NCBI RefSeq assembly: GCF_017495225.1
Contig: NZ_JAFEIG010000020.1
Location: 62,001-126,000 of the forward strand
Length of the DNA: 64,000 nucleotides
Reading direction: 5' to 3'
Source: Daejeonella sp.
GTDB taxonomy: Bacteria; Bacteroidota; Bacteroidia; Sphingobacteriales; Sphingobacteriaceae
Position 1 is the stretch's first letter, and each line of letters begins with the position of its first letter. The position numbers and the translations under genes are program-made. The notes under the pieces were generated by a model that worked only from the letters and a program-made list of their open reading frames with translations, was not told the origin of the DNA and made no database searches. This document shows, piece by piece, positions 5,102-31,668 of the stretch.

Positions 5102-5125
5102 ATTAAAAAAAATATAGCGTTTTAT
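5089..5125. terminator. Bidirectional terminator between pntB and the response regulator
   Basis: The 11-bp arms AAAACGCTATA and TATAGCGTTTT are separated by an A-rich loop. The hairpin overlaps the 3' ends of both convergent genes, including the pntB stop codon. Confidence 0.7.
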
Positions 5126-6501
5126 TCTTCACGTTTTAAGCTGTATTTATCAATTTTACTATATAAATGGCTTCTTTGGATGTCGATTTCATCGGCTGTT
5201 TTTGATACATTCCAATTATTTTTCTCCAATTTATATTTAATAAAATCGCGTTCTACATAATCTTTGTATTCCTGAAAATTTGTAAAACTGTCAAAATTTA
5301 AGGAATGATTATTTTTTGTGCTTACGGATGTAGAGCTTATAGAATTCGGATTAGCAAAAGCTATAACATCCTTATCAGTTATTACTTTATCACTCAAAAT
5401 GATAAGACGCTCAATCATATTCCTTAACTCTCTAATATTACCAGTCCATGCCATGTTTTTTAATGCATCCATAGCTTCTCCACTGATCGCTTTAAGGGGC
5501 ATGCCATAGTCATTGCAAATTTCGGTACAAAAGTTTTGTGCAATTAGAGGAATGTCCTCCTTGCGTTCTGTTAAATTTGGTACATGAATTAAGATCACAC
5601 TTAGTCTATGATAAAGGTCCATTCTGAAGTTGCCTGCGTCAATTTCTTTTTGGAGATCTTTATTGGTTGCAGCTATCACACGTACATCAACATCAATTTC
5701 TTTTTCACCACCTACACGCGTTACTTTATTTTCTTGAAGTGCACGTAATACTTTTGCTTGAGCAGAGAGACTCATGTCACCAATTTCATCTAAAAATAAT
5801 GTCCCACCATTGGCTTGCTCAAATTTTCCAATTCTTTGTTTAATGGCTGAGGTAAAAGATCCTTTTTCATGACCAAATAGCTCGCTTTCAATTAATTCTG
5901 AAGGGATGGCAGCACAATTAACTTCAACTAATACAGAATCTGCACGGTTCGATTTTTCGTGTAGCCAACGCGCAACCAATTCTTTTCCACTGCCATTAGC
6001 ACCGGTTATTAATACACGCGCATCAGTAGGGGCAACACGGTCAATAGTATCTTTAATTTTTTGAATAGCGGTTGATTTACCAAGCATCTCACGTGTGCGA
6101 CTAGCCTTACGCTTTAATACCTTGGTTTCTATCACTAAGTTTTTGCGTTCTAAGGCATTTCTAACCGTTAATAGCAATCTATTTAAATCGGGTGGTTTGG
6201 TTATAAAGTCATAGGCTCCTTTTTTACTGGATTCAATAGCAGTTTCTACGGTGCCATGTCCAGAAATCATGATAAAAGGCAAGTCTGGTTGTATTTTTAG
6301 TCCCTCTATCAGAACCTCCATACCATCCATCTTATTCATTTTTATATCGCAAAGAATCAAGTCATATTCGTTTTTAGCGATAAGAATCAGTGCATCAGAA
6401 CCATTATCAATGTCGTCGACCTGATATTGTTCATATTCTAAAATCTCACGTAAAGTATTACGTATTGACCTTTCATCATCTATGATTAGAATTTTTGCCA
6501 T
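5122..6501 (-). CDS. NtrC-family sigma-54-dependent response regulator
   Basis: A 459-residue protein with three domains. The receiver domain (1-120) has acidic pocket D8/D9, phospho-acceptor D52 in LCDIKM and K102. The AAA+ sigma-54 activator domain (about 140-370) has Walker A GANGSGK at 167-173, the sigma-54 loop GSFTSA at 214-219 (GAFTGA in NtrC) and Walker B GGTLFLDE at 232-239. A Fis-type helix-turn-helix (about 425-455) carries NVSKTADEIDIQRSHLYSKI. It should bind an enhancer and remodel sigma-54 holoenzyme when phosphorylated. No histidine kinase is adjacent, so it is an orphan in this window. It converges with pntB and lies next to rnpB on the same strand. Its targets are unknown; the repeats at 30661-30693 are one candidate. 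Confidence 0.93.
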   Translation of the reverse strand: MAKILIIDDERSIRNTLREILEYEQYQVDDIDNGSDALILIAKNEYDLILCDIKMNKMDGMEVLIEGLKIQPDLPFIMISGHGTVETAIESSKKGAYDFITKPPDLNRLLLTVRNALERKNLVIETKVLKRKASRTREMLGKSTAIQKIKDTIDRVAPTDARVLITGANGSGKELVARWLHEKSNRADSVLVEVNCAAIPSELIESELFGHEKGSFTSAIKQRIGKFEQANGGTLFLDEIGDMSLSAQAKVLRALQENKVTRVGGEKEIDVDVRVIAATNKDLQKEIDAGNFRMDLYHRLSVILIHVPNLTERKEDIPLIAQNFCTEICNDYGMPLKAISGEAMDALKNMAWTGNIRELRNMIERLIILSDKVITDKDVIAFANPNSISSTSVSTKNNHSLNFDSFTNFQEYKDYVERDFIKYKLEKNNWNVSKTADEIDIQRSHLYSKIDKYSLKREE

Positions 6502-30387: not shown

Positions 30388-30462
30388 GGTGGCTGTAGCT
30401 CAGTTGGTTAGAGTATTGGTTTGTGGTGCCGAGGGTCGTGGGTTCGAGCCCCATCAGCCACC
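30388..30462 (+). tRNA. tRNA-His (GTG)
   Basis: Cloverleaf with acceptor arms GTGGCTG/CAGCCAC, the extra G-1 (30388) opposite C73 that marks tRNA-His, anticodon loop TTGTGGT (GTG), and GGTTCGAGC T-loop. CCA is not encoded. A terminator follows directly. Confidence 0.97.
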
Positions 30463-30474
30463 CGTAAATATTAG

Positions 30475-30507
30475 AAATCCCCTTTCATAACGGAAGGGGA
30501 TTTTTTT
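30475..30507 (+). terminator. Terminator of tRNA-His
   Basis: AAATCCCCTT / AAGGGGATTT stem with a run of seven T. Confidence 0.9.
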
Positions 30508-30660
30508 ATGCACTGGAATCTGAATTCTTCTCAGATGATATTCCATTTCTTAGAAATCTCTAATAATCTTTATTTCTTAATCAAAAACATTAAATCGTTT
30601 GTATCTTTCAAAACAATAGGTCATTGCTTTATTTGATTTTACAATTTATTGAGCAATAAT

Positions 30661-30693
30661 TTCTACACTGTGAGTAGTAAATTCTACAATGTG
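30661..30693 (+). repeat. Two 12-bp direct repeats, candidate activator-binding sites
   Basis: TTCTACACTGTG (30661-30672) and TTCTACAATGTG (30682-30693) differ at one base and start 21 bp apart, two helical turns. Each holds the small dyad ACA-N-TGT. They lie about 80-112 bp before the presumed start of the RNA at 30773, the usual position of enhancers of sigma-54 activators. Function is inferred. Confidence 0.55.
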
Positions 30694-30746
30694 GGGAAAT
30701 ATTAAATATTTATATCTCTTTTTAAGGATCTTGGCACGTATTTTTT

Positions 30747-30763
30747 TTGGCACACCAATTGTG
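30747..30763 (+). promoter_or_regulatory. Sigma-54-like -24/-12 promoter
   Basis: TTGGCACACCAATTGTG: the -24 half TTGGCAC is perfect and the GG-N10-GT spacing is right, but the -12 half is TTGT instead of TTGC. A weaker alternative is a vegetative promoter, TTTG (30746-30749) with TAGGTTTA (30766-30773), whose spacer of 16 is short. Confidence 0.5.
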
Positions 30764-30772
30764 TATAGGTTT

Positions 30773-30842
30773 ATGCCCTCCCAAAGGGCATGTTTTTCAT
30801 AGGTAGATGTAGGGTCGAATATTTATATTCGGCCCTTTTTTT
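30773..30842 (+). ncRNA. Putative small RNA with two hairpins
   Basis: A roughly 70-nt stretch without a plausible gene. Hairpin 1 is ATGCCCT, loop CCCAA, AGGGCAT (30773-30791), a perfect 7-bp stem. After a linker (30792-30811), hairpin 2 is GGGTCGAATAT / ATATTCGGCCC (30812-30835), followed by seven T. The U-tract follows only on the plus strand, so the terminator belongs to a plus transcript. tRNA-His upstream has its own terminator, so a separate promoter is needed, and a sigma-54-like one is present. The 3' end overlaps the last codon of murQ on the other strand. Function unknown. Confidence 0.55.
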
Positions 30843-31668
30843 ATTCAGTGCTCTTATTATTGTTTTTCCAGCTATCCTCAGCTTTTTTAACACTTCCTTC
30901 TTTTAACAATAATTCTTTTGCTTTAGCATAATCAGTTATTCCTGTGTTGCCCATTAACATCTTTACTGCGCGATCAATAATCTTATCATTGATAAGTTTT
31001 ACATTCACCATTTTATTATCCTGAACGCGACCTAGTTTAATCATTGTTGAAGTGCTTATCATATCGAATATCATTTTTTGTGCCGTCCCACATTTCATTC
31101 TTGTACTTCCACTAATAAATTCTGGTCCGGTGATAAGCTCTACGATATAATCCGATTGCTCTGCAATTGTAGAATTTGGATTGCTTACAATACACCCAGC
31201 ACTAATATTATTTTTCCTGCATTCTTTTAAAGCTGATAAAACAAATGGTGTAGTGCCGCTAGCTGAAATCCCAATCACAATATCCTTCACGTTTACTTTA
31301 TGCTGAACCAGCATCTCCCAAGCTGAATTTATATCATCTTCTTTTTCCTCAGGTGCTTCAATTAAATGTTCTTTACCACCAGCAAGAATTACATTAAACA
31401 AATCATTTGAAACGCCAAATGTTGTAGGCAATTCTATGGTATCCAATACAGATAATCGTCCTCCACTACCAGCTCCAACATAAAACAATCGGCCGCCAGT
31501 AGATATTTTATCGACTATGGTATTAATTAAGTCGTTTATTGCTGGTAAGGCATGCTCAATGGCTAAGGCAACAGACTGATCTTCTTTATTAATATTCTTA
31601 GTGATTTCTTCAACCGACATTTTTTCCAAGTGCCTATAATTTGATTCTTGTTCCGTGATTTTTAGCAT
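30841..31668 (-). CDS. murQ: N-acetylmuramic acid 6-phosphate etherase
   Basis: A 275-residue SIS-domain protein. It has the family blocks TEQESNYRHLEKMSVEEI at the N-terminus, GAGSGGRLSVLDTIELPTTFG (about 61-81) with the catalytic Glu, ISASGTTPFVLSAL, and GSTRMKCGTAQKMI. It splits the lactyl ether of MurNAc-6-P to GlcNAc-6-P and D-lactate in cell-wall recycling. Length is at the short end of the family (usually about 270-300). No MurNAc kinase or transporter is adjacent. It diverges from the Mla-type transporter. Confidence 0.94.
   Translation of the reverse strand: MLKITEQESNYRHLEKMSVEEITKNINKEDQSVALAIEHALPAINDLINTIVDKISTGGRLFYVGAGSGGRLSVLDTIELPTTFGVSNDLFNVILAGGKEHLIEAPEEKEDDINSAWEMLVQHKVNVKDIVIGISASGTTPFVLSALKECRKNNISAGCIVSNPNSTIAEQSDYIVELITGPEFISGSTRMKCGTAQKMIFDMISTSTMIKLGRVQDNKMVNVKLINDKIIDRAVKMLMGNTGITDYAKAKELLLKEGSVKKAEDSWKNNNKSTE

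Follow-up and report, generated by a model that had tools for sequence, protein, structure and literature searches.

The interval between tRNA-His and murQ in the window, i.e., the whole 64,000-nucleotide stretch of Daejeonella sp. DNA analysed here, raises the question of whether it holds an RNA gene of its own and, if so, which form of RNA polymerase reads it. The first-pass annotation had proposed a separate small RNA gene, driven from a sigma-54 promoter by enhancers located upstream, and the comparison with relatives supports this proposal. With considerable confidence, we suggest that the locus carries a free-standing small RNA gene controlled by sigma-54 polymerase and an enhancer-binding protein, the core of which would pair with mRNA starts. 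The gene, its boundaries, structure, conservation, promoter class and operators were established by computation (Table 1).

The small RNA gene and its distribution

The tRNA-His gene (30389-30463) ends at its own terminator (30480-30499), as had been annotated. On the other side, murQ (30841-31668, minus strand), confirmed as the gene for N-acetylmuramic acid 6-phosphate etherase, is convergent with the small RNA. Both hairpins mentioned in the earlier annotation were recovered from the sequence and by a terminator scan, and the second (30811-30836) is followed by seven T at 30836-30842. When 221 bp around the site were compared with 60 relatives by BLAST, the matches (85-97%) started at 30773-30774, the predicted +1, and stopped at the T run; thus, the gene boundaries are fixed without any promoter argument. 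The 71-nt RNA folds with -26.2 kcal/mol (z = -4.3; none of 200 shuffles was equally good), and the 18 nt between the two hairpins are predicted to be unpaired.

Table 1. Features of the small RNA locus and of one activator gene considered, with positions in the window.
Feature	Position	Strand	Basis or remark
EBP-A, NtrC/NtrX-type enhancer-binding response regulator	5122..6501	-	weighed as activator, less likely
Activator dyad 1, TGAGCAATAATTTCTACA, 18 bp	30650..30667	+	similar dyads at the equivalent place in the sigma-54 class only; holds the start of the first repeat of the first-pass annotation
Activator dyad 2, TGAGTAGTAAATTCTACA, 18 bp	30671..30688	+	follows dyad 1 at an offset of two helical turns (21 bp)
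Possible third, degenerate half-site, TGTGGGGAAA	30690..30699	+	GGGGAA-type half-sites recur in relatives; weak here
Second TTGGCAC, no -12 partner	30731..30737	+	double -24 in 8/37 sigma-54-class loci
Sigma-54 promoter TTGGCAC-N5-TTGTG (-24/-12)	30747..30763	+	sequence and conservation in homologues
Small RNA gene, ~70 nt	30773..30842	+	BLAST boundaries, fold z, covariance model (88.6 bits); predicted +1 at 30773/30774
5' hairpin	30772..30792	+	arm changes compensate each other among homologues
Invariant unpaired core GUUUUUCAUAGGUAGAUGUA, probable pairing seed	30792..30811	+	invariant columns, predicted unpaired
Terminator hairpin and T run	30811..30842	+	double-sided changes in 8/10 consensus pairs

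Two readings would dispense with an RNA gene of this kind. According to the first, the hairpins are a mere terminator pair, serving tRNA-His read-through or acting as a bidirectional murQ terminator. Both hairpins do look like terminators and the arrangement is convergent with murQ; however, tRNA-His already has a terminator, the murQ strand has no T run, and the 70-nt block is conserved in many other contexts with its own promoter of either kind. We regard this reading as very improbable. Even less credence is given to a short leaderless coding gene, in which the AUG at 30773 would open the peptide MPSQRACFS. The RNA starts with AUG here and in several homologues, but neither the start codon nor the frame is kept among them (GTG, TTG, ACCC and altered hairpin lengths occur), and the substitutions preserve base pairs, not codons.

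The RNA had also been expected to terminate at the murQ 3' end. In the window the murQ stop codon does overlap the T run, but this is incidental, the RNA sitting beside genes other than murQ in other genomes. The murQ strand (30772-30841, minus) contains no T-rich terminator, and murQ read-through would yield an antisense transcript to the small RNA.

A covariance-model search of related genomes, which the first-pass annotation had proposed as a check, revealed homologues family-wide. The model (R1) was built on the core and the terminator pairs, with the 5' hairpin left out. It found a single copy in the Daejeonella genome under study (88.6 bits) and homologues in 29 of the 37 family genomes (E<=1e-9), with 1 to about 7 copies each; of 198 genomes of the class scanned, G062 alone gave a strong match outside the family. 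The exact core occurs, among the matches listed, in Pedobacter, Mucilaginibacter, Sphingobacterium, Daejeonella, Arcticibacter, Olivibacter and others, and UUUUCAUAGNUAGAUNU was invariant in 57/57 aligned sequences. Of 122 unique sequences, 111 have a 5' hairpin stem of at least 5 bp, where 38 would be expected, and the arms make up 55 distinct pairs.

Tandem arrays of sigma-54 copies comprise three units in Mucilaginibacter pedocola (L136:3520-4259) and four at L151:1184-2221, each unit having its own promoter and terminator. These arrays lie ~700-900 bp from tRNA-Val. The Mucilaginibacter-type terminator stem includes the invariant CTGCGAGAG. Extra hairpin-and-core copies (AGGTAGATAT) without the normal terminator were found at L201:224-293 and L202:272-339 (minus; genomes G006 and G009); they are nearly alike across the two genomes and are maybe decayed or mobile. 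The plasmid and phage record collections gave no DNA match. On the viral contig IMGVR_UViG_3300003321_000307 (L181:1894-1950, minus), the core TTTTTCATAGGTAGATGTAG and a terminator lie 11 nt past the stop of the major head protein gene (PHROG 10), and this is possibly a phage-borne 3'-UTR copy of the seed.

Two promoter classes

The -24 element with a degenerate -12 that had been annotated at 30747-30763 was borne out. TTGGCAC at 30747-30753 and the -12 TTG at 30759-30761 form GG-N10-GT and imply a +1 at ~30773-30774. The -12 ends in GT, while the canonical ending is GC; the family mostly has TTG[AT], which may be the form proper to this lineage. A promoter scan alone was not above chance, and the sigma-54 promoter stands above chance because relatives share it. 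In 12 of the 20 genus genomes and in other genera, the tandem operators have been retained together with the -24/-12 pair at constant spacing, while the flanking sequence diverges. In total, the GG-N10-GC-like -24/-12 is kept at fixed spacing at 37 loci, and the genome under study possesses activator sites, rpoN and enhancer-binding proteins. The other TTGGCAC, which precedes the promoter by 16 bp, may be an additional binding site for sigma-54 polymerase.

Among 154 upstream regions, 37 carried TGGYAY-N5-TTG between -43 and -50 relative to the core; shuffles would give 0.18, and the count was 0 both on the opposite strand of that stretch and in a far-upstream stretch. The housekeeping box TAnnTTTG was found at -28 to -35 from the core in 95 regions, and 23 regions had neither promoter type. 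Both types occurred together in one region versus 23 expected (P ~2e-18 if the loci are independent). The sigma-54 class includes the window, 11 other Daejeonella genomes (G007, i.e., L196, among them), Desertivirga, Hufsiella and many Mucilaginibacter; L190 (G062) represents the sigma-54 form in another family.

Given that the housekeeping promoter is the commonest among homologues (95/154), the small RNA could be real but transcribed in the window from a sigma-A TAnnTTTG promoter, with a fortuitous -24-like element. The window has TAGGTTTA at 30766-30773 with a TTG ~16-17 bp upstream. However, its housekeeping box scores -9.6, against a sigma-A class minimum of 8.6, the conserved final G is absent and the spacing is short. 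The joint conservation of the sigma-54 element and operators at constant spacing also speaks against this reading, which we consider improbable, and we retain the sigma-54 promoter for the window copy.

It had been stated in the first-pass annotation that close relatives keeping the hairpins without the repeats and the -24 element would count against sigma-54 control. Such copies do occur in some congeners (e.g., L006, L008, L013, L014 and L015), but TAnnTTTG replaces the lost elements there, which argues for promoter exchange and not for refutation. G014 (L007:1504-1813, minus) has two tandem copies 240 bp apart, one of the sigma-54 and the other of the sigma-A class, and this pair is a possible intermediate of promoter exchange. 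In addition, tRNA-His adjoins both sigma-54 copies (the window, L023, L028 and L029) and sigma-A copies (L014, L035 and others). This arrangement indicates that a related locus likely underwent promoter exchange or lost one copy of a tandem pair.

Upstream dyads and candidate activators

Two 12-bp direct repeats had been reported upstream of the promoter. TTCTACACTGTG (30661-30672) and TTCTACAATGTG (30682-30693) are indeed 21 bp apart, but they are not identical (11/12 positions match), and each turned out to form the right half of an 18-bp dyad, the two dyads being nearly alike. A pattern-free motif search upstream of the sigma-54 class returned the dyad TTGGGGAA-n4-TTCCCCAA, with TTCTACAA as an alternative for one half, often present twice, ~21 bp apart. 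Operator half-sites numbered 1.0 per upstream region in the sigma-54 class, 0.08 in the sigma-A class and 0.03 in shuffles; the half-site pattern was chosen after sequence inspection, and the sigma-A class is the fair control.

The genome under study encodes three enhancer-binding proteins (PF00158), designated EBP-A, EBP-B and EBP-C. EBP-A was rejected as the activator, being absent from G001, G007, G011 and G016, all of which have the sigma-54-form RNA. EBP-C was taken as universal. EBP-B, a protein of the response-regulator type encoded outside the window (G000:C16:1585-2988), was present in 12/12 genus genomes with the sigma-54 form versus 4/8 without it (Fisher 0.014, confounded by phylogeny) and is the best candidate for the putative activator. 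Among the loci examined, no enhancer-binding gene was convincingly linked directly to the RNA gene; at L147, such a gene lies ~5.6 kb from an RNA copy that lacks both promoter types.

In 1.25 Mb of the genome under study, TGGYAY-N5-TTGW is intergenic three times: before the small RNA, lon and dnaK, the latter two genes being named from their N-terminal sequences. The matches are located 88 nt before lon (G000:C8:423222, +) and 59 nt before dnaK (G000:C7:116090, +). In Flavobacterium psychrophilum, sigma-54 promoters were mapped before lon, dnaK, other quality-control genes and the putative regulatory RNA Rfp36 (PMC9723704). Taken together with that regulon, the three occurrences indicate that the element is very probably the working sigma-54 promoter of the lineage. 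The small RNA may be part of a stress-type regulon. In the sequence read, no dyads of the small RNA type were present before lon and dnaK, which suggests that the activator of the small RNA differs from theirs.

Mode of action and relation to known RNAs

The UUUUUCAU of the core is antisense to the common start AUGAAAAA. On these grounds the core could pair with mRNAs near their start codons. By duplex energy, pairing at the start codons of 1058 genes of the genome under study showed no excess over internal regions. Longer ungapped core pairing was commoner at starts (54 vs 24), which may merely reflect common ATGAAA starts. At the top candidates, ddl and EBP-B, core pairing with the start was not conserved (ddl was judged on plus-strand loci). 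Near-perfect core complements in the genome numbered 8, of which the RNA gene itself should be one, versus 6 in the backward control, i.e., there was no excess. No SusC-type mRNA appeared among the top pairings (40% of the genome).

Alternatively, the sigma-54-driven RNA could act by binding a protein, as a decoy or sponge (cf. GlmY for RapZ, and 6S RNA), with the core as the protein site. The ~18-nt core invariant across the whole family, the lack of enrichment of complementary sites, and a short RRM protein found in the genome under study and in 10 of the 12 congeners tested would fit such a role, and GlmY provides a precedent of a decoy RNA under sigma-54 (PMC6075780). However, UUUUUCAU is exactly antisense to the common start and is common to FopS, a proven base-pairing RNA, and G005 and G012 have the small RNA but lack the RRM protein. 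Because the target searches were negative or uninformative, we favour pairing at starts with modest confidence only, and a protein-binding role is regarded as a weaker but credible prospect.

We infer transcription, sigma-54 dependence in vivo, the activator and the mode of action as follows. Sigma-54 RNA polymerase would sit waiting on TTGGCAC-N5-TTG (30747-30763). Upon a signal, dimers of an enhancer-binding protein, with EBP-B as the preferred candidate, would open the promoter from the two 18-bp dyads, which precede +1 by ~94 and ~115 bp. Transcription is predicted to start at 30773/30774 and to stop at the hairpin with seven T (30842), so that the RNA would consist of the 5' hairpin, ~20 nt of invariant single-stranded core and the terminator. 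The UUUUUCAU of the core would then most likely pair with AUGAAAAA around mRNA start codons in a FopS-like manner. The pairing would reduce the translation of a gene set, perhaps under the same stresses that increase Lon and DnaK.

The first-pass annotation recognised no RNA family, and a search of 4227 Rfam families likewise gave no match above the gathering score at the locus, nor any at relaxed E-values. The FopS model (RF04319) reached 19.1 bits, its cut-off being 56. The FopS R1' seed shares UGUUUUUCAU with the small RNA; the Smith-Waterman score was reached by 3/3000 shuffles and the extension by 452/3000, and the likeness past AUGUUUUUCAU is not significant. FopS sRNAs of Bacteroides begin with GUGUUUUUCAU and are multicopy; they act at the start codon to repress susC mRNAs, bind RbpB, an RRM protein, and also have a phage copy (PMC11697453). 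Like FopS/GibS (RF04319, RF04182), the small RNA is ~65-70 nt long, multicopy and of Bacteroidota origin, with a single-stranded UGUUUUUCAU seed followed by a terminator, and in both groups there is a seed copy on a phage and a short RRM protein in the genome. In contrast to the single-stranded 5' stretch of FopS, a conserved 5' hairpin precedes the seed here, and FopS uses sigma-ABfr promoters, whereas the Sphingobacteriaceae RNA is partly under sigma-54. Since the Rfam cut-off was not reached and the likeness is limited to AUGUUUUUCAU, the RNA is FopS-like at best and was not filed as FopS, which is probably its closest described relative in action.

Sigma-54-driven sRNAs are already known, namely Qrr and GlmY (PMC4211561, PMC6075780). 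GlmY/GlmZ of Enterobacteriaceae likewise form an sRNA family linked to the envelope, with sigma-54 as well as housekeeping promoters, and the QseF dyads TGTN12ACA (PMC6075780) resemble the 18-bp dyads here. However, there is no sequence relation, the GlmY promoters overlap at one gene whereas here they are mutually exclusive, and the small RNA gene has no adjoining activator operon. Qrr of Vibrio shares the multicopy state, an invariant core (PMC4211561) and sigma-54 control with a response-regulator activator, LuxO; its sequence is unrelated (RF00378 scored 11.8 bits, the cut-off being 50), and no activator-linked homologue of the small RNA was found. Rfp36 of F. psychrophilum, also of Bacteroidota, is similar by description as a putative regulatory RNA with a sigma-54 promoter (PMC9723704). 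The best sub-threshold Rfam scores belonged to suhB/mmgR (29.7 vs 41) and sbrA (27.9 vs 45), which have a similar two-hairpin outline but come from other phyla and do not share the core.

The family is absent from Rfam, and our literature search found neither a paper on it nor a description of sRNAs in Sphingobacteriaceae. Judging by sequence comparison, this is an undescribed Sphingobacteriaceae RNA family, and its unusual feature, as read from the upstream regions, is that across the family an invariant RNA stands behind either of two promoter classes that exclude each other. A broader and more tentative idea is that a single start-antisense seed might be a family-wide effector, repeatedly rewired (sigma-A, or sigma-54 with a dedicated activator), tandem-amplified and carried by phage behind the major head gene, and might constitute the RNA arm of a Bacteroidota sigma-54 response to protein-quality and envelope stress.

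Small RNA regulation in Bacteroidota is known chiefly from Bacteroides. The present family is sharply defined and easily probed, and it occurs in the culturable genera Pedobacter, Mucilaginibacter, Sphingobacterium and Daejeonella. With its two exclusive promoter classes, the family allows a direct test of sigma-54 control over a Bacteroidota sRNA and offers natural promoter pairs for a promoter-replacement study. The family could link the poorly understood sigma-54 stress regulon with translation control, with a single regulatory RNA wired across related species to two control systems, an ordinary promoter or an activator-controlled sigma-54 promoter.
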